From assembly GCA_963971405.1 (NCBI GenBank), contig OZ020487.1:33713371-33777370 (forward strand): a stretch of 64,000 bases of DNA, read 5' to 3'. Under the pieces are notes generated by a model that saw nothing but the letters and a program-made list of their open reading frames with translations, had not been told where the DNA came from and did not search any database. Source of the DNA: Psococerastis gibbosa. Lineage: Eukaryota > Arthropoda > Insecta > Psocodea > Psocidae. A program made the position numbers and the translations under genes. Shown here in pieces: positions 4,200 through 46,799 of this stretch. Position 1 is the first letter of the stretch, and each line of letters opens with the position of its first letter.

Positions 4200-5640
4200 C
4201 CCCTTCAATATAATTCAATATTCAATTACTGTATTTATTACCAACACAAAAAATGTAAATTATGGCAGCATCATCTATCTACCGCAAGGCATTGGCCCGT
4301 GGGCGGATTAACGTTGGTTAGTTTGTTACCTATCTCGGCTATATGAGACGATTAATTTTTAAAAATTACATAGTTAAAAACAGTTCATTTAACACGAAAT
4401 CGTCCTGTGGGAACGAAAAGAAATGATGTTTAAATGAAATTTACATACAGGAACCTATGTAAATCGGAGGATGGGGGGTATTTTTTTATTTTTATATTTT
4501 TATGAAACCCATTTGTCGATTTTTTTCAATAAAAAAACTTTATAATATTTATTGTTTTTGACTCAAAAGAAATAGTAGGTAACTAGGCCTAGCTTAAACT
4601 TGTAGCATGCAGGACTGGTGAACTGTCCCAAGTCCTCAAAGATCTGAATTCTGGAACAACAGAGGCAGCCTGCGTTTCTGCACCCCAAAAGGTACACTAA
4701 ACTTTTGAAATTCACGCCAAGAAAAGGCAATCACGGCCCCTATTGTTTTGGAACCCTCTTTCTTTTGTGCATCTCCCCCCAACACCTGGGAGACGTTTAC
4801 ACTCGCAAACTCATCCAGATCTTTGAGACCTCTCGGGTATATAACAGTTTAAGTAGATTAAATAATTGGAGAAATACGGAGAGTACCGAATGTTTTAAAT
4901 TGTTTCTTAAAACTATCCTCTTTCTGGTTATGAAAATTATAAGAATTTTCCAGACATTAGAGACTCATTTCCGGACAATTTTCCTGAACCAAGACGATTC
5001 TAGTAAAATGGTTGGCTGTATCGCTACCTACCACAGACGCAGACATTTTGAAAAAAGCTGTGGGCAAGGGGAAATACAAAGGAAAACAGTGGGAACACAA
5101 TGGGGATAATAAAAGAATGGCGTTCTCTTTAAGTTTTTCCATTATATCTTCTATCCTTTTGCTTACGCTAGCCTTATATTTCAGCAACCTAAAAACTTAT
5201 ATTTTTACCCTTATACGTACTTTTGAGTAAATGGGAAAATTCAAGTTAAGTGCATTTTGAAAACATTAGGGAATTCATGGTCAGAACACGAACGTTCCAT
5301 GCGGCGTGAGATGCTGAGAAATTTATCATGGAAATAGATGGGCTGGTGATAGGTTGACGCAAATAAGACACTGTAAGTTAATTTTTGGACGCACTTCCAA
5401 AGTTTTGTGACGTTGACGCGTGTTCGGGGCGTGTCAAGGGATTAGTTGGGCAATACAGGGAGCTGTGAAGCGGCGATGCAACAGGGACGGTTTCAGAAAA
5501 AGTTTTCGGCCTGAAAAATATCGCGTTTCCCTTACTTGAGCAATAATTTTTCCTAATTTCCTTCAAAAGTCCATTCTATCTAGTATAAAGCTATTTCTCG
5601 GGCGACCGCTCCCACAGCCCCCCCCCCCAAGGATCCGTCC
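4200..5640. other. Intergenic; weak ORFs only
   Basis: The longest frame is 134 codons (4705-5109, +). An overlapping 72-codon frame at 5012-5230 ends in a hydrophobic stretch (SIISSILLLTLALYF). Neither shows a recognised family, and no convincing splice sites or polyadenylation context were found. They are recorded as unexplained, not as genes. Confidence 0.3.
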
Positions 5641-6910: not shown

Positions 6911-7110
6911 AAAATAAATAAATAAGGACTTTTTTTTGTTCCATTACTCAGCCAACCTATAAAGCCCTCTCTTACACTCAACTAAGAAAGCCCGGGACCG
7001 CCTGCTGTACATGCCCTCCGAAGCATGGCCAGAAAATGTAGGAAGTGTAGGACTCGAACCAACAACCTTTCGGGTGAAAGTCAGAGTCCGTACCACTACT
7101 CTACATGTCT
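6911..7110 (-). mobile_element. tRNA-derived SINE (SINE1)
   Basis: This is a full-length minus-strand copy. The B-box appears as GGACTCGAACC (inverse of GGTTCGAGTCC). The tail reads AAATAAATAAATAAGGAC on the + strand, so the element ends in an AT-rich TTATTTATTT tract. Confidence 0.85.
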
Positions 7111-12800: not shown

Positions 12801-15800
12801 TGCCGGTCTGTGTATTTAGACCAGCAATTGGTGAGTTACTGGAATTATCAAATTAATGATCCGATGGAAGGAGTTAAGCCGCTTAAAAAAAAGGTTTAAT
12901 CACATACTACCCGACCACGATAAAATCGAATAAACTCGTTGTTCCGCTTATTAAAGTTTTCAAATAAATAAATGAAGTGTTTCAAATGTCTTTCTTACTT
13001 CGTCGGGTAGTACAGTATAGTTCTCTATTTGCGTACTACCACCTTCTTCTACTGGTCTCATATATCTCATTTACGTGAAAGGGTGCGTTATACAACACCC
13101 TCTTTCATACAGTACTTTCTCCCATCTGTCCAAAACTCAAGAAACTTAGGTGCCCCTAGAAGATGAGCAATAGGGGCCAAGCCGTTGTTTATTCAAAATT
13201 TGAGTTAATGAGCCTTGGTGAACATGATAGTAAACTTCAAAGCATTTCATTGACAGCTGCGTTTTACTATAACACTATAAGACTTCACACAAAAAATGCA
13301 TCAATAATAATAGTTATATAGAAGAAAAATATATACTGTAGGTATTCATAACTTTTGTGTACCATTGGTTCCATTACCTAATGCCATCTTTCCATCTACT
13401 CTTTCAAGCAAAGCCTTCTCATAAAGCATTTCTTCCAAAGATTGGATGTAACAAGTTTTGCTTCTTTTTAGGAATTCCACTCAGTACTAGTTTCTCATTG
13501 TATCTCGGCAAAAGTACCACGGGTACTTGTATTCCATCATTATTAAAGATCATACCATTTTTTAGTGTTTCCTACCTATAAGGAGCCAATCTCAGGATGG
13601 ATCGACAACTACTACGGACCTGTAGGCATGACAGTTGCCGCATGGCTTGGAGTTTTGCGAGTTTTTTGGGCGGACGGCAATCAAACGTCCAGCTTTGTTC
13701 CAGTCGACATGGCTGTAAATGCAATGTTAATACTTGCAAGAAACACACACTTGGCATTTAGGTAAGTAGCCAGAGACATCTTTGCCAACGACCATACCAA
13801 GTTGAATCCCCACCAGAACATAGCCTCTTCCAAACTGCAACAGACTTGGTAGTGTGCGCAGCGTTGGCAGGGGAGCATGGTGGGACATGATAACGTGCTG
13901 AGACTATACTAGCTAGTCTGAGTGCAAGTCCTGGTTACCTCCAAATTAATCGTGGGCTTTACTAAGTTCCCCAAGTGATTCGGAATCCACTATAATCAGG
14001 AGGTCCACCCAGTCAGTCAACTCCCCTTCTCCCCGAGGTAAAAGAGTCTACCCTTAAGGTACCTCAAGTTTATAAACAGACTCACTCCCCCCACCAGGCT
14101 TACAGGGTAGCTTAAAGCAGAAATGCTGAAGGCAGGCGTTGGAAAACAAATAAACATCTCTCCTGTACATTAAACCCCAGTAAATTTTTTATAATAATCA
14201 AAACGTAATGTCCTTTCGGGCTTCTGCGTTGTGCCGTATGTTTGTGTGATAACACACAGTATTGTGCTTGCTCTTCACCCGTGTGGTTCAGCAAACTGCT
14301 ATCAGGGGCGCACTAGACAACGAGGTTGCTTAGAGAACTCAAGTTGTATTGATTGCTATGTTGCAGCTCTGGCGACGAAACAATAAAAATTTACAACTAT
14401 GACTCTGGCCGTGACAACCCTATCAAATGGGGTGACTACAAGGATCAAGTGATTGCCAATACAAAGGTATGTTAGGTAGAGTAGTGGTGCGGACTGTGAG
14501 TGTAACCCGAAGGTTGTTGGTTCGAGCAACGCACTTGTTACATTTTCTGGCCATGCCTCGGAGAGCTTGTAAAGTAAGTTGGCTTACTACTATAGTAGAA
14601 CAAAAAGTCATTATTTAGTTATTTATTGATATAAATAAAAATGCTCACTTCAATTTCATACTGTATGTCGTTAATTTTATTTAACCGACTACGAGGCTAA
14701 ATGAGATATAAGTACCTTTAAACTTGAAAAAAGAACCTCAAGACAGTCTCAAACTTTTTCATAGACCAATTCCCGATTACTACTTTGCTACTTGCTTTTA
14801 CTTTATCCGCACTTTATCCCCTACGAGGGGTTGGCGGTGCGGCATTCCAAAGCTCTCCTTCGAAGGCGTCTTGGTGAGAGCGTATGGGTTCTTACATATT
14901 ATATGCCCGGATCTTTCTCGGCCGCTCGATCACTCCTAATTCTACAGTAATTACGGTATATAAAATCTATGGGTCTTGTTTGAGTGGAAAAAAGGAAGCC
15001 TCATTCATTCGTGTTTAGCCATGTTACACACACTCGTTATGACTATTTTCATGTGACCGGTACCTACTTCTTTTCAGGTGCCAACTATTAAAGCGATGTG
15101 GTATTACTCTTGTATCTTCACGAAACGGTATTACATCTTTTGGATCCTATCGCTGTTATTGCATTACTTCCCAGCGTACGTAATAGACGGCATAGCCTCA
15201 CTGACCGGCAAGAAGCCGCAGTAAGTCATTAAGTTAGCGATTTAAGTGAATCAGTTTTATTACCTATGAAAAGTTCCAGAAAATCGTACAACTCTCTTTA
15301 AGCACCTTCGAGGAAAGTTAAACAAAACTTCGAATTTATGCTAACGATTATGGCTGTTTTCCCCCATATTGTAGTCTATAGAAGAAAAGATGAAATCATC
15401 CACGCACCTTTATCAAAGTTTTAAGATTAAGTTAATTAACAAAATCGCAATGTCATTTATAGCCTAATTAACATATTTCCACTACATTGTCGAAACTTTC
15501 AGGGAGCTGCCCTATTCGGGCTCTATATATGGTCTCCTAGTTGAGTGTAAGAGAGGGCCTTATAACCCTAACTCCGCTAGGTTGACTTAGTAATAGAACA
15601 AAAAAGTCAATATTTATTATTATTATTATTGTTGAGGGGCTTTTTATGGACGTAGCTCGCGTCCATTGAACCTTGCCCTGCCAACGACCCCATCGGTATT
15701 CGGTCATTATCGGTATTGTTTCCGAATGAATTTCTAGCCGCGTTGGCAAACTGGTTATAAATAAATAAATAAATAAGGACTTTTTTTGTTCTATTACTAA

Positions 15801-17858
15801 GCCAACCTAGCGGAGTTAGGGCTATAAAGCCCTCTCTTACACTCAACTAAGAAAGCCCGGGACCACCTGCTTTACATGCCCTCCGAAGCATGGCCAGAAA
15901 ATGTAGGAAGTGTAGGACTCGAACCAACAACCTTTCGGGTCAAAGTCAGAGTCCGCACCACTGGTCTACATGGCTCACTCTTTGATGTCAACCCACACCA
16001 ACTACAAGTGGAAATGGGCAAACTCACCTTACCATTGACATTGCAACAGGTGTTAGCTCGACCTAACCAAGTATGGGTTCCTATATCCGGGTCCTATACT
16101 GTATTTAGTTGAACATGAGCAATTGAGCATGAAAAGGAGCCATTTATGGTAGAAAAAGCCATAAGGCGAGAAAATGGGGACTGACACGATGAACAATAAT
16201 TAGGTGGTTTAGAAGCAAAACGGGCAAAGTCCATTATACGACCGTAGTTAATATAGTATTTCGTGAGAGCCAAAAAACTATAGCTAAGTGCCCGGTGATT
16301 GCATCTAAACCCAATTTTTGAACTACTTTTACGCTGAAGTATGCCAGAATTAGCTTCTAATAATTAATTCAATGAATAGATTTCAACCAGACGAATCTAT
16401 ATTGGCGCCAAAAACTTCAAAATTTCAGAATTGTTGACTTAGCCAGTTTTGCTTCTATAACACTCAAATGTACATTTTACTTTCAGGATGGTGAAAACGT
16501 ATGACAGAATAACAAAATCTAATGTAGCTCTCGCAAGGTTCACACTCCGAACTTACAAATTCGACAATAATAATGTACGACAACTTGTTCAAAATACTAG
16601 TCTTGAGGACCAGCAAGTCTTTTATATAGACGTTAAAGTATTAGACTGGAAGAAATATTTCAATGACATGATTTTCGGCTGTAGGTTGTACCTCCTCAAG
16701 GACCCCTTGGAGACATTGCCTCAGGCCCTTGTCAAATGGAGAAGGTGAGAGTTTCGGGTAATTGGATTATTGCCGTCGTTATTGCCTTTTTAAAATAATT
16801 TATAATCAAGTTCAATAACTGTAACAGCAATATTTTTCGGTTCCATCAGAGGTAGGTACCGTAGTTGTAAAGTTGACATGCAGCTAATAGACCTGTCAAA
16901 ATGGCCATGAAAATAGTGATAAAGTTTATGAATATTTAGTGAATATTGTCGATGAATGGTTTAGTTTATACATGAAAGAGACACGATTAGGCATGCCTAA
17001 TTACCTAATATGTACATACGTGACCGTATGTGCATATTATGTGGGGCGTGACTGTTACAAGCGCGATATCTCAGGAATGGTGGCCCTAAGAAAAAAAATG
17101 TTAAAAACCTGTTTTATTGAAAATTTAAAGATCTACAACTGTGGGTAAAATACTTCTTTGATACAACTAACCGTTTTTGAGAAAAACACCAAAAACCTGA
17201 AATTGTGACCTTTGACCCCGAATAACTTTTTTAGCACACGTCGATCGATGACTTTTGACATTTTATTGATAATGGTAAACCCAAGGTCTGTACCAAAATT
17301 TGGCTCGGTCGGAATTTTGTTACTTGATATGTCTAAATTGATTGGACTATTAATATAAACACATATATAAACGGTACACATCAGATAAATATTTAATATT
17401 AAATTGGGCATGGAAACAGTTCTTTTCATAATTCATAAACATGATTAGTATTTTACTAGTGGCATTATGATTAGGCGGTGTTTCCACATACGTCAATTGT
17501 CAATGAGAAATATGGTTTTGACGTGGCAGCAGAATTTTTAGTATGTCTTTAATGTCTGCTCAACCTTCAATTTCACTTTTTTCATTGACGTATGTGGAAA
17601 CACCGCCTTAGCATATACAGTCGAGATATAATTACCAAACGACGGAAAATATGCATTTAGTCTACATATTGTTAAGCTAAGTTAAGATAAAAACAATAAC
17701 CTATAGTACAGTATTGATGATAACACCAGATAATTTTTTAATTGTTTTTTTTCAGGTTGTATTGGCTGCACAATGCTACAAAATTTCTCCTTTTTTGTGG
17801 CTTTGCTTTCTTATGTTATATCCTTCATTTGAAATTACGAGTATATTCATTCTTTTAA
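9824..17858 (+). CDS. Fatty acyl-CoA reductase, complete eight-exon gene
   Basis: The product is an alcohol-forming fatty acyl-CoA reductase. This family reduces acyl-CoA to fatty alcohol with two NADPH at ER or peroxisomal membranes, feeding wax, cuticle and pheromone lipids. Coding exons are 9830-10030, 11238-11486, 12575-12830, 13566-13761, 14367-14466, 15078-15220, 16487-16744 and 17756-17858. All introns are GT-AG with phases 0,0,1,2,0,2,2. The spliced frame is open for 501 residues, the usual family length. The dinucleotide-binding motif TGATGFMG is at residues 20-27. FVHLST is at 152-157 and the catalytic YxxxK (YTMTK) at 208-212. The C-terminal sterile/FAR_C domain spans about 380-468. 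A hydrophobic tail, about 474-495, suggests membrane anchoring. There are no stops or frameshifts. The start ATG at 9830 has A at -3 and G at +4 and lies 6 bases after an acceptor, so a noncoding first exon lies upstream, not located. The specific paralogue and chain-length preference cannot be told. Confidence 0.95.
9830..10030 (+). CDS. FAR coding exon 1 (residues 1-67)
   Basis: The acceptor TTTGTACCTTTCAG ends at 9823 and the donor GTAAGT starts at 10031. It encodes the N-terminal Rossmann strand and the TGATGFMGK nucleotide-binding loop, then the helix VLIEKLLR and strand LYLLIR. The exon lies between two SINE copies of the same family in the same orientation. Confidence 0.93.
10203..10438 (-). 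mobile_element. R3-head SINE, copy c, in FAR intron 1
   Basis: A perfect 14-bp direct repeat, CTAAAAGATAAGTA, flanks it (10189-10202 and 10439-10452). The head is nearly identical to the copy at 9425-9690. The 3' end carries CATACTACTACTACTT on the minus strand. Confidence 0.85.
11238..11486 (+). CDS. FAR coding exon 2 (residues 68-150)
   Basis: The acceptor ATATTCCAG ends at 11237 and the donor GTAGGC starts at 11487. It encodes the family segments VIPGDCGLPSLGL and NVIFHGAATVRMDENLK and AYSINVGGVRELL. Length is 83 codons, phase 0 at both ends. Confidence 0.93.
11735..11914 (+). mobile_element. SINE1 copy in FAR intron 2
   Basis: It has the B-box GGTTCGAGTTCC, a GTATGTATGTATGTA insertion, the SINE1 body (GAGTGTAAGAGAGGGCTTATAGCC) and a TTATTTATTTATTTA tail. 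The head is partly degraded. Confidence 0.75.
12212..12460 (-). mobile_element. tRNA-like SINE in FAR intron 2
   Basis: On the minus strand an A-box-like TGGTAGAGAGCTACAC is followed by a B-box GGTTCGAAACTC. The element ends in a TTATTTATTTA-type tract (12214-12232 on the + strand). The body differs from SINE1, so it may be a separate or older family. Confidence 0.5.
12575..12830 (+). CDS. FAR coding exon 3 (residues 151-235 plus 1 base)
   Basis: The acceptor TTGATTTTTAG ends at 12574 and the donor GTGAGT starts at 12831. It carries the catalytic region: FVHLSTMYAN, then the variable substrate-facing segment, then PNTYTMTKAIGEHL with the Tyr and Lys of YxxxK, then VCVFRPAI. Confidence 0.93.
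13566..13761 (+). CDS. FAR coding exon 4 (residues 236-300)
   Basis: The acceptor CATTTTTTAG ends at 13565 and the donor GTAAGT starts at 13762. It encodes the conserved KEPISGWIDNYYGPVGM block and the FVPVDMAVNAML block that ends the reductase domain. Confidence 0.93.
13782..14144 (+). mobile_element. R3 SINE-like element in FAR intron 4
   Basis: This is a nearly full copy, from GCCAACGACCATACC to GGCAGGCGTTGGAAAACAAATAA. It begins about 20 bases after the exon-4 splice donor. ACATCT occurs on both sides as a possible short target repeat. Confidence 0.75.
14367..14466 (+). CDS. FAR coding exon 5 (residues 301-334)
   Basis: The acceptor ATGTTGCAG ends at 14366 and the donor GTATGT starts at 14467. 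It encodes IKIYNYDSGRDNPIKWGDY, the family's YNY...NPIKWGE-type block. Confidence 0.93.
14470..14628 (+). mobile_element. SINE1 copy in FAR intron 5
   Basis: It is shortened, with A-box GTAGAGTAGTGG, a mutated B-box (GGTTCGAGCAAC) and the tail TTATTTAGTTATTTATT. It starts within the first bases after the donor GTATGT. Confidence 0.7.
15078..15220 (+). CDS. FAR coding exon 6 (residues 335-381 plus 2 bases)
   Basis: The acceptor TTCTTTTCAG ends at 15077 and the donor GTAAGT starts at 15221. It encodes a hydrophobic segment (IFWILSLLLHYFPAYVIDGI), the likely membrane-associated helix before the FAR_C domain, then LTGKKP. Confidence 0.92.
15536..15622 (+). mobile_element. SINE1 3' fragment in FAR intron 6
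   Basis: Only the SINE1 3' half is present, from TAGTTGAGTGTAAGAGAGGG to the AAAAAGTCAATATTTATTATT tail. Confidence 0.7.
15631..16097 (-). mobile_element. R2 SINE-like element split by a SINE1 insertion
   Basis: The two halves, 15631-15749 and 15975-16097, together match R2 copies at 29032-29278 and 54585-54805. Shared blocks are CCAACGACCCCAT...GGTATTGTTTCCG and GTCAACC-ACACC. The interruption is exactly a SINE1. Confidence 0.65.
15750..15974 (-). mobile_element. SINE1 copy nested in R2 (FAR intron 6)
   Basis: A complete minus-strand copy with intact B-box (GGACTCGAACC on +) and an ATAAATAAATAAATAAGGAC tail end. It shares both boundaries with the break in R2, so it inserted after R2. Confidence 0.8.
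16487..16744 (+). CDS. FAR coding exon 7 (residues 382-467)
   Basis: The acceptor ATTTTACTTTCAG ends at 16486 and the donor GTGAGA starts at 16745. It encodes the FAR_C/sterile domain: FDNNNVRQL, then VKVLDWKKYF, then GCRLYLLKD and LPQALVKW. Confidence 0.93.
17474..17607. mobile_element. PIF/Harbinger-type MITE in FAR intron 7
   Basis: The inverted ends GGCGGTGTTTCCACATACGT and ACGTATGTGGAAACACCGCC are perfect. TTA flanks both sides (17471-17473, 17608-17610), the 3-bp duplication of this superfamily. It is 134 bp long and noncoding. Confidence 0.8.
17756..17858 (+). CDS. FAR coding exon 8 (residues 468-501 and stop)
   Basis: The acceptor TTGTTTTTTTTCAG ends at 17755. It encodes RLYWLHNATKFLLFCGF and a hydrophobic C-terminal helix, then stops at TAA 17856-17858. 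The nearest clear AATAAA downstream is at 18579-18584; the 3' end is otherwise not defined. Confidence 0.92.
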
Positions 17859-37600: not shown

Positions 37601-37621
37601 TGTCCCCAGGATATATATATT

Positions 37622-40562
37622 AGTCCGGGAGCCAGGGGGGGTCTCACTTGACGAAGTTCCGGAGAAGGTTTGAGCTCATGAGGCGCTTAGGATGTGTCTC
37701 TAGTCTGTAAAAAACCCTTTCTTACGAGCCGGCTCTGGGGCTTTTGGGTGCTACAAATTTTTTAAAGTGCCTAATTTTTGGAAAAACTTGACGAACTGGT
37801 GGGTCAAAAATTTTCAAAGAAAACTACGCTGAACTATGTACAGTAGACGAAATCTTGAAATCAGAGGATTCCCAGGGGACTTTCACCTCAAAAGAAGCAA
37901 TCCAAAAAGGGTGGGAACGGGAAAAATTTGACAAAGAGGTGGGCTTATAATTTCCTTATATATGATTCCCATCGTTCTCCTGAGCACAAAAACAAAAAAT
38001 AAGAAGTTTCTGTTGGGACATTCATCCCTTAAGAAGGGGACAAATTTTCGTCAAATTAAACTTGACAAACGAGATTTTGAGAAATCTCAATTTGGAACAG
38101 TGCATAGTAGTTTCTAGTATGTCAAAACGTAATTATAAGAAAATTCCGTTAGGGCTTTCAACCCTTAAGAAGCAATCCAAAAAAGGAGGGAACGGGAAAA
38201 ATTTGTCGAAGAGGAGGGCTTATAATTTCCCCCTATCTGAAAACCATGTTTTACCCAAGTCTGAAAACTGAAAATAAGAATTTTTCGTTGGGGCTTTCAT
38301 CCCTTAAGAGTGGTTCAAATTTTCGTCAAATTTTTCTTGACGAACGAGATAATAACATTTCTCAATTTTAAATAATACCTAGTAGTTTTTAGTATGTGAA
38401 AACGTAATTATCAGACAATTCCGTTGGGGCTTTCACCCCTTAAGAAGCAATCCAAAAGGGGTGGGATCGGGAAAAATTTGACAAAGAGGTGGGCTTATAA
38501 TTTCCCTATGTATGATTCCCACCGTTCTCCTGAGCACGAAAACGAAAAATAAGAAGTTTCTGTTGGGACATTCATCCCTTAAGAGGGGGATAAATTTTCG
38601 TCAAATTAAACTTGACGAACGAGATTTTGAGAAATCTGAATTTGGAACAATGCATAGTAGTTTCTAGTATGTCAAAACGTAATTATAAGAAAATTCCGTT
38701 GGGGCTTTCATCCCTTAAGAAGCAATCCAAAAAGGGAGGGAACGGGAAAAATTTGTCGAAGAGGAGGGTTTATAATTTCCCCTTATCTGAAAACCATAGT
38801 TCACCCACATCTGAAAACTGAAAATAAGAATTTTTCGTTGGGGCTTTCATCCCTTAAGAGTGGTTCAAATTTTCGTCAAATTTTTCTTGACGAACGAGAT
38901 AATGACATTTCTCAATTTTAAATAATACCTAGTAGTTTTTAGTATGTGAAAACGTAATTATCAGAAAATTCCGTTGGGGCTTTCACCCCTTAAGAATCAA
39001 TCCAAAAGGGGTGGGACCGGGAAAAATTTGACGAAGAGGTGGGCTTATAATTTCCCTATATATGATTCCCACCGTTCTCCTGAGCTCGAAAAAGAAAAAT
39101 AAGAAGTTTCTGTTGGGACATTCATCCCTTAAGAAGGGGACAAATTTTCGTCAAATTTAACTTGACGAACGAGATGTTGACAAATCTCAATTTTTAACAA
39201 TTCATAGTAGTTTCTAGTATGACAAAACGTAATTATAAGAAAATTCCATTGGGGCTTTCACCCCTTAAGAAGCAATCCAAAAAAGGAGGGAACGGGAAAA
39301 ATTTGTCGAAGAGGTGGGCTAATAATTTCCCCTTATCTGAAAACCATGGTTCACCCAAGTCTGAAAACTGAAAATAAGAATTTTTCGTTGGGGCTTTCAT
39401 CCCTTAAGACTGGTTCAAATTTTTGTATAATTTTACTTGACGAATGAGAGGATGACAAATATCAAATTGAAACTATGCGTAATAGTGTCTAGTATGTGTA
39501 AACTTAAATATAAGAAAATTCCGTCGGGGCTTTCACCCTTTAAGACGCTATTCATAAGGGATGTCATGGTGTGGTACCGGCCAAGAGTATCGGTGATGAA
39601 GTAAAGGAAAGCACATGTGGGCGGGGCTATATGTCAGCAATATAACCCAAGAACAAAATAACACATAGGACATTGATTTTGGGACGGCTGTCCATATACG
39701 AACTATTAAGCAATTTCATCTGAGACTTGCTCTCCTGAGCCTATAGCAATAATTGAGGACTTGAACTCTCTATTTTACGGTATGATTGAAAAAGACCGTA
39801 TTTTCCCTTTGCCTCGAAAACACGATATGAAGTTATTGCTTTAAAAGCATGCATTCCAATCATGGCTTTAGAGACATCGGGTCCCATTCTCTTAGCCAAG
39901 AGGGTGGCGTCAATAGCTCGCCTAATAAACACTCGTCCCAAAATCAATGTAGTAGGTGTTATTTTGTTCTTGGGTTATATTGCCGACAAAAAAAAAATTG
40001 GTTGTCTGTAAGTCGGTTGTAAAGTCGGTTTACGGACGATAGTTTTACGTGACAACCCCTAAATCAACTTAAACATAATTAACTAACTTACCCTAAACAA
40101 TATATGGCTGGAAAGAGTACCGTAGTTTGCATTTTTTAAATAGATAATAATGGGGCCGAAAGAGTCCTATTTCGGTTGAAAATCGTGTGCACCCCCTGAC
40201 GTTTCACACCCCCAAAGCGAAACCCCTTACTTGATCACCACAAGTATAGCATGGCCTGAAAGAGGAGAAATAGACGAAGACATGGGTATAATTTAAATTA
40301 AGGTAGGCCTTCCTCGTCAGCCTAAGAAAATTGCTTTAAACCCCCCATGCAATTCAAATGGGATTGCTGCTAATACGTCATTTTTTTTGTTCCACTCGTG
40401 TTGAAGGGGTGAAGGGGTGAATTTGAAAATATTTATTTGTACTCGTTTGAAACCATAATTTGTACTGCTTCTAATGAAATTTAAAAATTAAAAATTAATT
40501 TCGGTTGAAAATTGCAGGCTGTGGATTTTTTTTTACTTTATGCATATAAATTGAAAAGTACC
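37622..40562 (+). repeat. Giant palindrome, left arm (2.94 kb)
   Basis: It runs from AGTCCGGGAGCCAGGGGGG to TGCATATAAATTGAAAAGTACCT. It is the near-identical inverse of 43815-46775, with only scattered substitutions and a few indels mostly near the inner end. Spacer 40563-43814. The arm includes the 137-bp array (37866-39560), a 69-codon frame at 39741-39947 and its own flanks. Confidence 0.92.
37866..39560 (+). repeat. About 12 monomers of a 137-bp tandem repeat in 550-bp higher-order units
   Basis: The landmark GGG-CTTTCA-CCCTTAAGA recurs about every 137 bp (near 37872, 38010, 38149, 38290, 38423, 38562, 38700, 38835, 38973, 39112, 39249, 39385, 39523). Every fourth monomer is most alike, giving three 550-bp units. 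Two of them contain a near-identical 69-codon frame (38062-38271, 38612-38821), a by-product of the repeat. Confidence 0.85.
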
Positions 40563-40864
40563 TACCCTTTGAACCCGTTTTCCGCCGGTACAGTGATGGC
40601 TTACCCTAAATATATGCCTGGAAAGAGTAAGAAAGGTGGAAAAGAACTAACGCAGTTTGAAGTTTTCAAATTGATATTAACACCCCCGAAAGGACATATT
40701 TTCCATTAAAATCGGCAAATTTTGGCGTACCTCCTCACGTTTCCACCCCCCAAAGTCGAACCCCTTGCCCTATCACAACAGATATAGCATGGCCTGAAAG
40801 AGCAAGAATAGACGAACACATGGGTATAATTTCAATTGAAATGAATAAACCAGCCTTTAAACCA

Positions 40865-40923
40865 GCGTTACTGACCCGCGTTAGCGACCCGTGGTAGCGA
40901 CCCGCGTGAGCGACCCGCGTGGC
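40865..40923 (+). repeat. 13-bp CpG-rich minisatellite, about 4.5 units
   Basis: Units GCGTTACTGACCC, GCGTTAGCGACCC, GTGGTAGCGACCC, GCGTGAGCGACCC and a partial fifth. Confidence 0.8.
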
Positions 40924-41089
40924 CGGCCTGTGCTTCAATTACTAACAACAAATTGGCTGTATTGCTGGCCACAATAGAGCAGACTTAATTTTAGCGCGGT
41001 TTTTAAAAAATTTAGAAATGATGTATGGGAAGAATCAAATAATTGCACGAAATCAGGACTACCGAACTTGGTTAAGTCACTTAAGTCGA

Positions 41090-41460
41090 GCTGACGCCTC
41101 CTTTTTCTAACATAAATTTTAAATTTATGCTTAAGAATTGAGCTATTAGTCGGAAAAGTGGCCAAGAGTAAAGAGATTACCCAAAATTTTGGTTTTCACT
41201 AACTTCGCTCTAAATTACATTATTCGAAAATTTTCTTAAATTTCTGGTTCAGAATACTGTTATGGACGGAAAAATATGGCAAGAGCGGAACAATTGCCAA
41301 ATTTCAAGTTTAATTTTTATTTTAATAATTTCATCCCTAAATGCACAATTCGACAAATTAAATAATTAAATATCATAATCGATATCGCTGTTATTGGTTA
41401 GAAAAGTTGCCAAGAACGAGATAATTTTGGGCTTAATTACAGTATTTGAATATTTTTTAA
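41090..41460 (-). repeat. Diverged 120-130 bp tandem repeat, inverted block
   Basis: Phrases such as GTCGGAAAAGTGGCCAAGAG, CCCAAA-TTTGG and TAAATTATTCGA are inverse versions of those at 42430-42836. Three degenerate units are discernible. Confidence 0.6.
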
Positions 41461-41561
41461 TTTTCTAGTGCAAGCAGATTAGCCCCATTCAACACCAAGA
41501 GCGGCCCCTAAGCATCGTAGTTTCGTTAAAAACCCTCATTTTTTTTCCTTCCTTGCCGATT

Positions 41562-41740
41562 CATGTCTGTTGTTGGTTTGAGTCCCACATATGATAAATT
41601 TTCTCATCATGCTTCGGAGGGCATGTAAAGCAGGCAGGCCTGGGCTTTTCTAGTTGAGTATGAGAGAAGGCTTTATAGCCCTAACTCCACTAGGTTGGCA
41701 TAATAACAGAATAAAGTCATTATTTATTTATTTCAATTTT
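41562..41740 (+). mobile_element. SINE1, 5'-truncated, in palindrome spacer
   Basis: Has GTTGGTTTGAGTCCCAC (B-box with one change), GCTTCGGAGGGCATGTAAAG, CTCCACTAGGTTGGC and a TTATTTATTTATTT tail. Confidence 0.8.
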
Positions 41741-41964
41741 CGCATTCATTATAGGCCTAGCATATTATGTATTCTGTTAATGCATTTTTTTTTTCAATTT
41801 AAATACCTTCGTAGGCTAATCATCATGATTTTTTTCACACTTCACTATTTGTTACAACAGTTTTGCCTGTATTTTGTTTGCCAATATTATTGAATTCAAT
41901 TAATATATAGTTACTTAAATAATTAGTCACAGCTAGCCCAACTCGGGCTCGTCTGTAAATTCAA

Positions 41965-42050
41965 AACTTTAATGCTATAAAAATGCGTATTAAAACCCTC
42001 ATTATTTCAGTCCTATTTTTCACACATGAAATCTCCAGGTGACATGTAGC
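41965..42050. repeat. R8 unit
   Basis: AAAATGCGTATTAAAACCC, TATTTCAGTCCTATTTTT and GAAATCTCCAGG match 3148-3210. Confidence 0.45.
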
Positions 42051-42429
42051 CATGTAGGAAAAATGAAATCATCGTCGGTAAGTTCTCAGTGTTAATGCTA
42101 TCACAATATGTAAACCCACCTGATCGGGCCTATTATTCAAAAAATTGTAATTGTGAAGGTTGTGCCCTCACTCCATACTTGAAAGGTAAGATTAGATGTA
42201 AGGGAATAATGATACAATGTATCGTACCAGGAATGTGTAGTTCCCGCAGAATGAGCATGCATGGAGAGCAACTCGGACATCCCCAATGGCCATTTTATGT
42301 GACAAAATCAAATTTTACAGAAAATAACCATTTTTGAGCTGTTTTTCGTAAATCAAGTTATGCAACTGTGCCATAACATAACATACATATATTAGAACGA
42401 ATGATGAAAACGGTGTCAGAAAATAAATT

Positions 42430-42836
42430 ATTACTGCTTAGCATAAATTGAAGAAATTTTTCGAATTAGGGGGGAAGTTAAAGAAAACCGAATAGTTTAA
42501 CTTTGGGTAATTTCTCGGCCCTTGGCCACTTTTCCGACCAATAAGAGATCTTTGAAGCATAAATTGAAGAAATGTTTACGAATTGTGTAATTAGGGGCTA
42601 TGTTAGAGAAAACCAAAAATTTAACTTTGGGCTATTTCTTGGTCCTTGGGCAATTTTTCCGACCAATGACAGGACTCTGAAGCATAAATTGAAGAAAATT
42701 TTCGAATTGTATAATTAGGGGCGAAATTAGAGAAAACCAAAAATTTTAATGTTGGGTAATTTCTCGGCCCTTGGCCAGTTTTCCGGCCAATAACAGTCCT
42801 ATGAAGTATAAATTGTAGAAATTTTTGCTTTCCAAT
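42430..42836 (+). repeat. 120-130 bp tandem repeat, three-plus units
   Basis: GCATAAATTGAAGAAA, TTAGGGG, AGAGAAAACCAAAAATTTAA, GGGTAATTTCTCGGCCCTTG and TTTCCGACCAATAA recur in order three times. This is the inverse partner of 41090-41460. Confidence 0.75.
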
Positions 42837-42891
42837 TTATACGCAGTACTATAAGGAGCCCCAAGATTTCACCGGATTTACACGTTTTGAG
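42837..42891 (+). mobile_element. R1 fragment with internal deletion
   Basis: GCTTTCCAATTTATACGCAG joined to CACCGGATTTACACGTTTTG, then replaced by a CAGTAGCGTAAATAACTT sequence resembling a hAT MITE end. Confidence 0.6.
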
Positions 42892-43189
42892 CAGTAGCGT
42901 AAATAACTTTTGCTGCGCCCCCCCCCCTCCCCCCGCAAGACCTTTGGTGCGCCCTACCTTGTCTTATTATTTCATCTTTGTTATGAGTGATTGTCATTAG
43001 TGGAATGCAAGCCTTAGCCACGATTTTCTTCGGGGGTGGCTGTGATCCTATCCCAGGTTATGCAGGTTATGGTGTTACTCGTAGGCTATTTATGTTACCA
43101 TAGGTACATATAAAAAGCTAAATTAGTGGGGACACAGCCAGACAACGTTGATATGCGGACTAGATCTTATAGAAACAATATTGCACGTA

Positions 43190-43650
43190 ATCCAAAGAGG
43201 GGGGCCCGGGAGTCTCCCCTGGGGAAAAAAATTGATAATATAAGTGTAATATAGTCATTGGCGTAAATTCCCAACATTTCTGGGGGGGGGGGGGGATTTA
43301 GGACCCCAAAACCGGGAATCATTACTCATTCACTTCTGAAGTGAGAAAGAAGAAAGGGGGGCCCGGGGGTCTCCCCTGGAGAAAAAAAGAAAAGCAATTC
43401 ATAAATAGGCCCAAATTAGTGAGGTTTTGCGCATGTTATACCCTAGAAAAAGGGGGTACCGGGGCTCTCCCCCGGAAAAAAAAATCGACAAATAGGCCCA
43501 AATTAGTGAGGTTTTTCGCATTTTCCAAGCAGTAAAGTTGAGTTTTTACCGACCAATAAAACTACCACGGAGGGGGGCCCGGGGGTCTCCTACTTAGAAA
43601 AGTTTGAGAAAATAAGTCTGAAATATCGGAATTTTAAGCATTTTGAGTAC
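43190..43650. repeat. R8 repeat array, about four units
   Basis: GGGGGGCCCGGG-GTCTCC-C-TGG recurs near 43199, 43356 and 43573, with a variant near 43452. AAATAGGCCCAAATTAGTGAGG occurs twice between. It is oriented opposite to 3148-3360. Confidence 0.65.
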
Positions 43651-43814
43651 CTAACAAGTTTTTGTGAAAGTACTTGATCAATATGTCGATTTTTTTATGA
43701 TGCATGTAAATTAGGCATACCAAGAATTACTTTCCCTTTCGTTATTGTAGATGCTATGCCTTTTGCCTCCATAACGTCTTTGTCACCAAAAACCCCGGGC
43801 TTAGCCCCCCGCCA

Positions 43815-46775
43815 GGTACTTTCCAATTTATATGCATCTATTGAGCAAAAAAAATCCACAGCCTGCAATTTTCAACCGAAATTAATTTTTAATTTTTAAA
43901 TTTCATTAGGAGCAGTACAAATTATGGTCTCAAACGAGTATAAATATATATTTTAATTATTAATTAATAATTAATTCACCCCGTCACCCCTTCAACACGA
44001 GTGGAACACAAAATGACGCATTAGCAGCAATCCCATTTGAATTGCATGGGGGGGATTTAAAGCAATTTTTTTAGGCTGACGAGGAAGGCCTACCTTAATT
44101 TAAATTATACCCATGTCTTCGTCTATTTCTCCTCTTTCAGGCCATGCTATACTTGTGGTGATCAAGTAAGGGGTTTCGCTTTGGGGGTGTGAAACGTCAG
44201 GGGGTGCACACGATTTTCAACCGAAATAGGACTCTTTCGGCCCCATTATTATCTATTTAAAAAATGCAAACTACGGTACTCTTTCCAGCCATATATTGTT
44301 TAGGGTAAGTTAGTAAATTATGTTTAAGTTGATTTAGGGGTTGTCACGTAAAACTATCGTCCGTAAACCGACTTTACAACCGACTTACAGACAACCAATT
44401 TTTTTTTTGTCGGCAATATAACCCAAGAACAAAATAACACCTACTACATTGATTTTGGGACGAGTGTTCATTAGGCGAGCTATTGACGCCACCCTCTTGG
44501 CTAAGAGAATGGGACCCGATGTCTCTAAAGCCATGATTGGAATGCATGCTTTTAAAGCAATAACTTCATATCGTGTTTTCGAGGCAAAGGGAAAATACGG
44601 TCTTTTTCAATCATACCGTAAAATAGAGAGTTCAAGTCCTCAATTATTGCTATAGGCTCAGGAGAGCAAGTCTCAGATGAAATTGCTTAATAGTTCGTAT
44701 ATGGACAGCCGTCCCAAAATCAATGTCCTATGTGTTATTTTGTTCTTGGGTTATATTGCTGACATATAGCCCCGCCCACATGTGCTTTCCTTTACTTCAT
44801 CACCGATACTCTTGGCCGGTACCACACCATGACATCCCTTATGAATAGCGTCTTAAAGGGTGAAAGCCCCGACGGAATTTTCTTATATTTAAGTTTACAC
44901 ATACTAGACACTATTACGCATAGTTTCAATTTGATATTTGTCATCCTCTCATTCGTCAAGTAAAATTATACAAAAATTTGAACCAGTCTTAAGGGATGAA
45001 AGCCCCAACGAAAAATTCTTATTTTCAGTTTTCAGACTTGGGTGAACCATGGTTTTCAGATAAGGGGAAATTATTAGCCCACCTCTTCGACAAATTTTTC
45101 CCGTTCCCTCCTTTTTTGGATTGCTTCTTAAGGGGTGAAAGCCCCAATGGAATTTTCTTATAATTACGTTTTGTCATACTAGAAACTACTATGAATTGTT
45201 AAAAATTGAGATTTGTCAACATCTCGTTCGTCAAGTTAAATTTGACGAAAATTTGTCCCCTTCTTAAGGGATGAATGTCCCAACAGAAACTTCTTATTTT
45301 TCTTTTTCGAGCTCAGGAGAACGGTGGGAATCATATATAGGGAAATTATAAGCCCACCTCTTCGTCAAATTTTTCCCGGTCCCACCCCTTTTGGATTGAT
45401 TCTTAAGGGGTGAAAGCCCCAACGGAATTTTCTGATAATTACGTTTTCACATACTAAAAACTACTAGGTATTATTTAAAATTGAGAAATGTCATTATCTC
45501 GTTCGTCAAGAAAAATTTGACGAAAATTTGAACCACTCTTAAGGGATGAAAGCCCCCAACGAAAAATTCTTATTTTCAGTTTTCAGATGTGGGTGAACTA
45601 TGGTTTTCAGATAAGGGGAAATTATAAACCCTCCTCTTCGACAAATTTTTCCCGTTCCCTCCCTTTTTGGATTGCTTCTTAGGGGATGAAAGCCCCAACG
45701 GAATTTTCTTATAATTACGTTTTGACATACTAGAAACTACTATGCATTGTTCCAAATTCAGATTTCTCAAAATCTCGTTCGTCAAGTTTAATTTGACGAA
45801 AATTTATCCCCCTCTTAAGGGATGAATGTCCCAACAGAAACTTCTTATTTTTCGTTTTCATGCTCAGGAGAACGGTGGGAATCATACATAGCGAAATTAT
45901 AAGCCCACCTCTTTGTCAAATTTTTCCCGATCCCACCCCTTTTGGATTGCTTCTTAAGGGGTGAAAGCCCCAACGGAATTGTCTGATAATTACATTTTCA
46001 CATACTAAAAACTACTAGGTATTATTTAAAATTGAGAAATGTCATTATCTCGTTCGTCAAGAAAAATTTGACGAAAATTTGAACCACTCTTAAGGGATGA
46101 AAGCCCCAACGAAAAATTCTTATTTTCAGTTTTCAGACTTGGGTAAAACATGGTTTTCAGATAGGGGGAAATTATAAGCCCTCCTCTTCGACAAATTTTT
46201 CCCGTTCCCTCCTTTTTTGGATTGCTTCTTAATGGTTGAAAGCCCTAACGGAATTTTCTTATAATTACGTTTTGACATACTAGAAACTACTATGCACTGT
46301 TCCAAATTGAGATTTCTCAAAATCTCGTTTGTCAAGTTTAATTTGACGAAAATTTGTCCCCTTCTTAAGGGATGAATGTCCCAACAGAAACTTCTTATTT
46401 TTTGTTTTTGTGCTCAGGAGAACGATGGGAATCATATATAAGGAAATTATAAGCCCACCTCTTTGTCAAATTTTTCCCGTTCCCACCCTTTTTGGATTGC
46501 TTCTTTTGAGGTGAAAGTCCCCTGGGAATCCTCTGATTTCAAGATTTCGTCTACTGTACATAGTTCAGCGTAGTTTTCTTTGAAAATTTTTGACCCACCA
46601 GTTCGTCAAGTTTTTCCAAAAATTAGGCACTTTAAAAAATTTGTAGCACCCAAAAGCCCCAGAGCCGGCTCGTAAGAAAAGGTTTTTTACAGACTAGAGA
46701 CACATCCTAAGCGCCTCATGAGCTCAAACCTTCTCCGGAACTTCGTCAAGTGAGACCCCCCCTGGCTCCCGGACT
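43815..46775 (-). repeat. Giant palindrome, right arm (2.96 kb)
   Basis: Inverse of 37622-40562. The 69-codon frame at 44449-44655 is identical in translation to that at 39741-39947. The frames at 45576-45785 and 46126-46335 each differ from their left-arm partners by one residue. Confidence 0.92.
44835..46530 (-). repeat. 137-bp tandem array in right palindrome arm
   Basis: Mirror of the left-arm array with the same 550-bp higher-order organisation. The inverse landmark TCTTAAGGG-TGAAAG-CCC recurs at matching spacing. Confidence 0.85.
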
Positions 46776-46799
46776 ATATGTATCCAGAAAATTAATCTA

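Follow-up and report, generated by a model that had tools for sequence, protein, structure and literature searches.

A 9156-bp palindrome in the genome of Psococerastis gibbosa is a real transposon of foldback architecture, probably a non-autonomous one

How does a near-perfect palindrome of about 9 kb come to stand in an insect genome: as a mobile element, as a single inverted duplication or as a fault of assembly? We addressed this question for a locus in a stretch of 64,000 nucleotides of Psococerastis gibbosa (assembly GCA_963971405.1, contig OZ020487.1, positions 33,713,371 to 33,777,370 of the forward strand), which is called the window here and to which all positions without a prefix refer. 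Foldback elements can give rise to inversions and to satellites, and the reason for their long and alike arms is unclear. As presented below, the palindrome is a real transposon, not a one-off inverted duplication or an assembly fault, and very probably belongs to a family of DNA transposons that have foldback architecture and are probably non-autonomous.

The element occupies positions 37621-46776 (9156 bp) and has the ends T-AGTCC...GGACT-A, the outermost pairing base, T at 37621 and A at 46776, being set by self-alignment of the arms. An earlier note on this DNA, made from the sequence alone, had given the span as 37622-46775, which was right as to the palindrome and one base short at either end. 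The flanks were therefore compared in the wrong register and a 3-bp target-site duplication (TSD) was overlooked; the mismatch reported for the 6-bp flanks came from a shift by one base. With the terminal T/A assigned to the element, the copy is flanked by TAT on both sides (37618-37620 and 46777-46779, plus strand). Since the left flank is an AT repeat, this match is weak taken alone, and it is the family-wide TSD data that carry the argument.

Self-alignment of the locus gave outer inverted arms at 37621-38843/45554-46776 (1223 nt, 99% identity), a second inverted block at 38831-40346/44050-45565 (1516 nt, 99% identity) and an inner inverted stretch at 40426-40533/43847-43954 (96% identity), with positions 40347-40425 and 43955-44049 falling outside the ungapped alignment, so that the arms are without full collinearity. 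Over the outer 2.6 kb one arm differs from the other by 9 substitutions and 2 gapped positions, which bears out the earlier description of inverse copies with scattered substitutions. The arms are also largely tandem repeats, as had been claimed: both carry arrays of 275-bp units (6.1 copies, 80% matches), in which two unit types, A and B, alternate and form a 550-bp higher-order repeat. Each arm is thus built of an outer domain (239 bp), six 275-bp units and an inner domain (~1 kb). In the left arm, on the plus strand, these are the outer, or flanking, domain of the terminal inverted repeat (TIR) at 37621-37859, which begins with TAGTCCGGGAGCC, the array at 37860-39547, whose inner edge was placed by eye, and the inner domain at 39548-40533, which contains the internal-deletion junction discussed below. 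The spacer (40534-43846) holds a 124-bp tandem repeat at 42464-42826. The right arm, on the minus strand, follows with its inner domain (43847-44848, positioned from the arm alignment), array of six 275-bp units (44849-46537, edges transferred from the left arm) and outer domain (46538-46776), which ends with GGCTCCCGGACTA and was defined by the terminus and matches of a 240-bp query.

Two smaller features were seen within the element. Imperfect 60-bp inverted repeats lie 237 bp apart in the inner domain (39632-39691 and 39929-39988) and are perhaps a small nested element. A dispersed repeat of ~165 bp, presumably SINE-like with a tRNA-like B-box, is present in the spacer (41569-41734) and at 6912-7076 and 15763-15940 of the window; another copy of it is the target of the insertion at C13:15746453.

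The sequence TTGACGAA was found 26 times in the arms (13 per outer domain and array), 0 times elsewhere in the element and 2 times in the 54,844 bp of the window outside it. In 500 shuffles of the left stretch its mean was 0.1 and its maximum 2, a test that overstates the enrichment since motif copies in tandem units are not independent. With one mismatch allowed, the motif recurs in the 275-bp unit at phases 68, 187 (reverse) and 202, while the two outermost exact matches are found 27 and 167 bp inside the element end (37648 and 37788 in the left outer domain). In Galileo, a member of the P superfamily, the transposase binds ~70 bp from the end and at further sites within the tandem repeats (PMC3688188). 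By analogy, TTGACGAA is a candidate transposase-binding site with a role comparable to the Galileo sites; repeated binding sites in the TIR are shown there and proposed here (PMC3688188). Derivation of the array from the outer domain, along the lines proposed for Tetris, is not claimed, the similarity being weak (1 of 300 shuffles reached the score for each unit type, same strand).

The family census covered the whole genome (409 Mb, 68 contigs). The 18-base terminus occurs 62 times (59 exact and 3 with one mismatch), so the structure in the window is not a product of chance; at up to 3 mismatches 149 places were found in the genome vs 73 for the reversed control, the best 100 being considered. 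Pairing by hand arranged the 62 termini into 27 inverted pairs and 8 unpaired ends, and the paired copies span from 2.5 kb (C2:47495002-47497548) to 20.1 kb (C14:40025630-40045761). A recent inverted duplication, the other possibility raised in the earlier note, is not supported as the whole explanation, the locus being one of 27 paired copies. With a 240-bp query for the outer domain, the best 40 of 72 candidates were all 99-100% identical to it. An older copy at C1:32284291, with arms about 91% alike, and decayed relatives at C15:2009884 and C12:30280632 suggest a long residence in the genome. A pattern search for the same end and motif returned 61 places, which comprise the known family, the old relative C12:30280632 and a few chance-like ones (control 14).

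Some loci of the family are irregular. C50:44988-49599 matches C21:3663103-3667303 at 99.9% from C50:45831 on, and its extra left terminus at 44988, before the start of the match and 1.07 kb ahead of the element, may be an allele, a duplicate or an assembly product. Three termini stand in a row at C3:49355036-49380205; as the third shares its right flank with the second, the right part and flank look tandemly duplicated.

TSDs were tested in 19 of the 27 pairs. The base outside AG was always T and the base after CT always A, and in this TAG/CTA register the 3-bp flanks matched in 18 of 19 pairs vs 24 of 342 mismatched cross-pairings, while matches of 4-9 bp were found in none of the 19. The single exception, C21:3664602-3679119 (AAG/GTA), is a possible product of ectopic recombination. 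The middle base of the TSD was A or T in all 18 cases (13 A, 5 T), with flanks of 57% A+T, and TAA or TTA made up 2 of the 18. Joined flank pairs were compared with the stretches of sequence that were read, the row of C13:22880741 being dropped as a match to its own flank. Paralogous empty sites, gapless at the junction and with one TSD copy each, were obtained for 4 of 19 joined pairs: C13:15746453, C15:13909961, C20:11532678 and C2:47495002. The clearest of these is C20, at 98.5% over 133 bases; in the C13 paralogues shown 1-2 of the 3 TSD bases differ, the C15 and C2 alignments are gapped away from the junction, and the C2 paralogue extends only about 8 bases to the left of the TSD. The checks proposed in the earlier note, a search for the terminus and a comparison of copies and empty sites, have yielded 62 termini, 27 pairs and four paralogous empty sites, and its term "foldback-like element" suits a dispersed multicopy family with long inverted repeats of tandem units, TSDs and empty sites.

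For the life of such an element we propose the following course. A DDE transposase encoded elsewhere would bind the repeated TTGACGAA in the outer domain and arrays, pair both arms and cut at TAG/CTA, and the element would insert at 3-bp targets whose central base is A or T. Damage in one arm would be repaired from the other arm by interarm gene conversion, and recombination between repeated segments of the inner domain would give rise to shorter copies, such as that in the window. As no transposase partner was found, mobilisation in trans stays a proposal.

The reading which competes best with a non-autonomous family is that the family is autonomous, its transposase being intron-rich or unfamiliar and encoded either within the interior (~7 kb) of the 12.7-kb copies or in another copy. 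The interior is kept in many copies, a 2541-bp probe having at least 44 matches (best 40 of 11588 candidates scored), and Pfam may miss some transposases; full reading covered 11 of the 27 paired copies and parts of three were scanned, so an autonomous copy could be hidden. Yet the coding potential that we found is small. The window element has a single ORF of at least 80 aa with an ATG, GTG or TTG start, and it is 82 aa long, which agrees with the earlier remark that no transposase is seen in the spacer, as does the lack of any Pfam domain in the scanned parts of larger copies. With X at stops and E limits of 0.1 or 0.05, these scans took in the interior of one copy and parts of two others: no match was obtained in six frames for the interior of a 12.7-kb copy (L016:3200-6694 and L017:1-3400), which includes the homologue of the spacer (E up to 0.1), in six frames for L013:3000-8500, or in five of six frames for L027:4700-8857. 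Stop-to-stop frames of at least 170 aa numbered only 8 in the 20 stretches examined for them. One of them, a 319-aa frame in a larger copy (L010:1073-2029), has a GIY-YIG match and is probably a nested Penelope-like retroelement; the remaining seven, from seven stretches, are of one 171-195-aa type, and the one example scanned had no Pfam match. Of the 45 indels that set the interior apart from that of the old copy, 4 have a length divisible by 3, which argues against a coding interior. We hold an autonomous family to be decidedly unlikely.

A partner elsewhere in the genome was sought through four Pfam families, among which only PF13359 (DDE_Tnp_4, Harbinger-type) is abundant, with 150 scored matches of 220 candidates. 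At six DDE_Tnp_4 loci from three groups, matches to the outer domain did not exceed 14 bp; their ends lie mostly beyond the 4 kb read. PF00867 (XPG_I) gave 6 matches, while PF02992 and PF07592 gave none in the genome and none in the control either. No DDE_Tnp_4 or PF00867 match was linked to the element termini, and neither was accepted as the partner. In the decayed relatives C12:30280632 and C15:2009884, inspection by eye of the stretches read revealed no recognisable transposase. Adjoining an old relative, the minus strand of L071 carries a 340-aa ORF (4307-5326 in reverse-complement coordinates) with PVDRPYPVHV-type repeats, which by eye is cuticle-protein-like.

Gene conversion had been suggested earlier as the process that keeps the arms similar, and this stands in a modified form. 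The arms of a copy largely evolve in concert, with 0-1 arm-arm substitutions in ~2600 positions in 6 of 10 copies, but the other four have 3, 9, 14 and 21, and in C13:22880741 there are 70 gapped positions between the arms. Between C1:33154006 and C19:20854389 the arms differ at 9-10 positions in ~2600 and the interior at 12 in 3397, which is about the same rate, whereas within these copies the arms differ at 1 and 0 positions, respectively. We aligned 18 arms of 9 copies, omitting C1:39795211, which has a longer array, and C50, which has one arm. Among 91 variable ungapped columns, 39 had a variant confined to the two arms of one copy and 41 a variant confined to one arm, the other 11 being more widely shared. 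Whenever exactly two arms carried the minority base they belonged to the same copy (39 of 39 columns; 1 in 17 expected at random). As two-arm variants may have been inherited, these columns are not 39 independent events, and 18 of them come from one copy, C3:49355036. The array number behaves in the same manner: from the end to the inner edge C1:39795211 measures 2483 bp in both arms vs 1932-1934 bp in the other nine copies, i.e., each arm is longer by 550 bp, or two units.

Interarm gene conversion or templated repair is the simplest reading of these patterns. That the TIRs of a single element can recombine with each other is an established idea, and ectopic exchange of this kind is reportedly treated for bacterial insertion sequences (PMC3004938). 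The family is suited to such a study, its copies being numerous and young and, in the pair compared, its arms diverging at about the rate of the interior yet staying near-identical within a copy; this divergence between copies, together with identity within copies and the gain of two units in both arms, makes interarm copying measurable. Speculative and rather unlikely is the further idea that the arms would be copied anew from each other in each cycle of transposition or excision repair (self-templated, by a hairpin or between arms), the pair of ends then being inherited as a unit, array number included, and served by an unclassified transposase with TAG...CTA ends and 3-bp NWN targets.

Concerted arms, and rearranged copies such as C3:49355036-49380205 and C50, would also fit a segmental or inverted duplication whose arms gene conversion keeps similar, without any transposition; we regard this as very improbable, contradicted as it is by termini that do not vary, by matching 3-bp TSDs in 18 of 19 pairs and by the paralogous empty sites. 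Long near-identical arms, such as these, are an assembly hazard, but one arm assembled twice in inverse orientation is hardly credible against an inverted layout at 27 places, 18 of 19 tested pairs with exact TSDs in otherwise different flanks and the 9 sites at which the arms of the window copy differ.

Within the transposon family, the window copy derives by internal deletion from a 12.73-kb copy such as C1:33154006. In the latter, a 748-bp segment of the inner domain lies inside the element and again in the arm, in direct orientation and 96.7% alike. Recombination between these repeats removes 3576 bp and predicts a product of 9154 bp, the window copy being 9156 bp long, and in its left arm the diagnostic sites are of the internal type on one side and of the arm type on the other. 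The map has its irregularities: sites are mixed at alignment columns 306-559, one site, at column 914, is out of place, and the alignment edges have runs that go the opposite way and were left uncounted.

As to known kinds, foldback-type architecture is a descriptive class, to which the element belongs by its kilobase-long TIRs, largely of tandem repeats, and its dispersed copies. Drosophila Foldback (FB) likewise has long inverted repeats of tandem units, but its TSD is 9 bp vs 3 bp here. The TSD of the P superfamily is 8 bp, and membership in it, or in Galileo, was rejected on 3-bp TSDs in 18 of 19 pairs and on the lack of any 7-bp or 8-bp match in three registers. CACTA/EnSpm elements end in CACTA or CACTG, and they were set aside on the terminus found here, TAGTCC at 59 exact places; PF02992, sought for this group, had no match in genome or control. 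AcademX elements carry an XPG-type nuclease; the genome has the 6 XPG_I matches mentioned and the scanned element parts have no Pfam domain. The AcademX TSD of 3-4 bp (PMC10045372) fits in length. Zator, with an ISAzo13-like transposase and a 3-bp TSD (PMC10045372), also fits in length; PF07592 had no match in genome or control. Polinton/Maverick, with a 6-bp TSD (PMC10045372), was rejected, since no pair matches at 6 bp in three registers and the scanned parts hold no Pfam domains.

The likeness to Galileo lies in very long TIRs with tandem repeats, in the similarity of the TIRs and in deletion derivatives (PMC3573991, PMC3688188). The TIRs within a Galileo copy are 98-100% identical, and a copying mechanism is proposed by the authors; copies of its F group have unequal array numbers in their two TIRs (PMC3573991), as opposed to C1:39795211, which is two units longer in both arms. 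Galileo also differs by a 7-bp TSD and copies with a P-type transposase (PMC3573991), vs the 3-bp TSD here. Tetris, a foldback element of Drosophila virilis, has a TIR in which ~220-bp tandem repeats stand between an outer flanking domain and an inner one (PMC4079207). Both families share this three-part TIR and a variable middle without coding capacity, and the autonomous partner was found in neither (PMC4079207). They differ in TSD, 8-9 bp (9-10 in rearranged copies) vs 3 bp, and in TIR length, up to 1,735 bp vs ~2.9 kb here (PMC4079207). Membership in Tetris was rejected, no pair matching at 8 or 9 bp in three registers. Tetris units also build long satellite arrays (PMC4079207); unlike them, 275-bp units formed no such arrays among the best 40 of 74 candidates.

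Judged by TSD length alone, compatible superfamilies are PHIS (Harbinger and kin), AcademX and Zator. MtPH-A6-4, a PIF/Harbinger element of Medicago, combines subterminal tandem repeats with a 3-bp TSD and non-coding derivatives (PMC2213677), but for PIF/Harbinger elements the same paper gives TIRs of 12-22 bp that start with GG and TSDs of TTA or TAA (PMC2213677), vs a ~2.9-kb TIR starting with TAGTCC here. Canonical PIF/Harbinger was not accepted, as the TSD fits in length and mostly not in sequence (TAA/TTA in 2 of 18, A or T in the middle in 18 of 18). The wider PHIS group has no TSD or one of 1-4 bp (PMC10045372), so a PHIS relative is possible. The element works like a foldback element and by its TSD is not Galileo, Tetris or Polinton, and the 3-bp TSD puts foldback architecture outside the long-TSD superfamilies. 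In literature searches that went by titles and the starts of abstracts, nothing was recognised as the present family.

Apart from the element, the mitochondrial COX1 was found to read with the invertebrate code and to have a trnL2-like motif and, judged by eye, a COX2-like frame after it, a gene order typical of insects and crustaceans. COX1-like fragments were noticed on many contigs (43 matches, one of which is the mitochondrial-looking contig C68), and at C14:11085363-11086704 two adjacent COX1-like rows jointly span nearly the whole gene.
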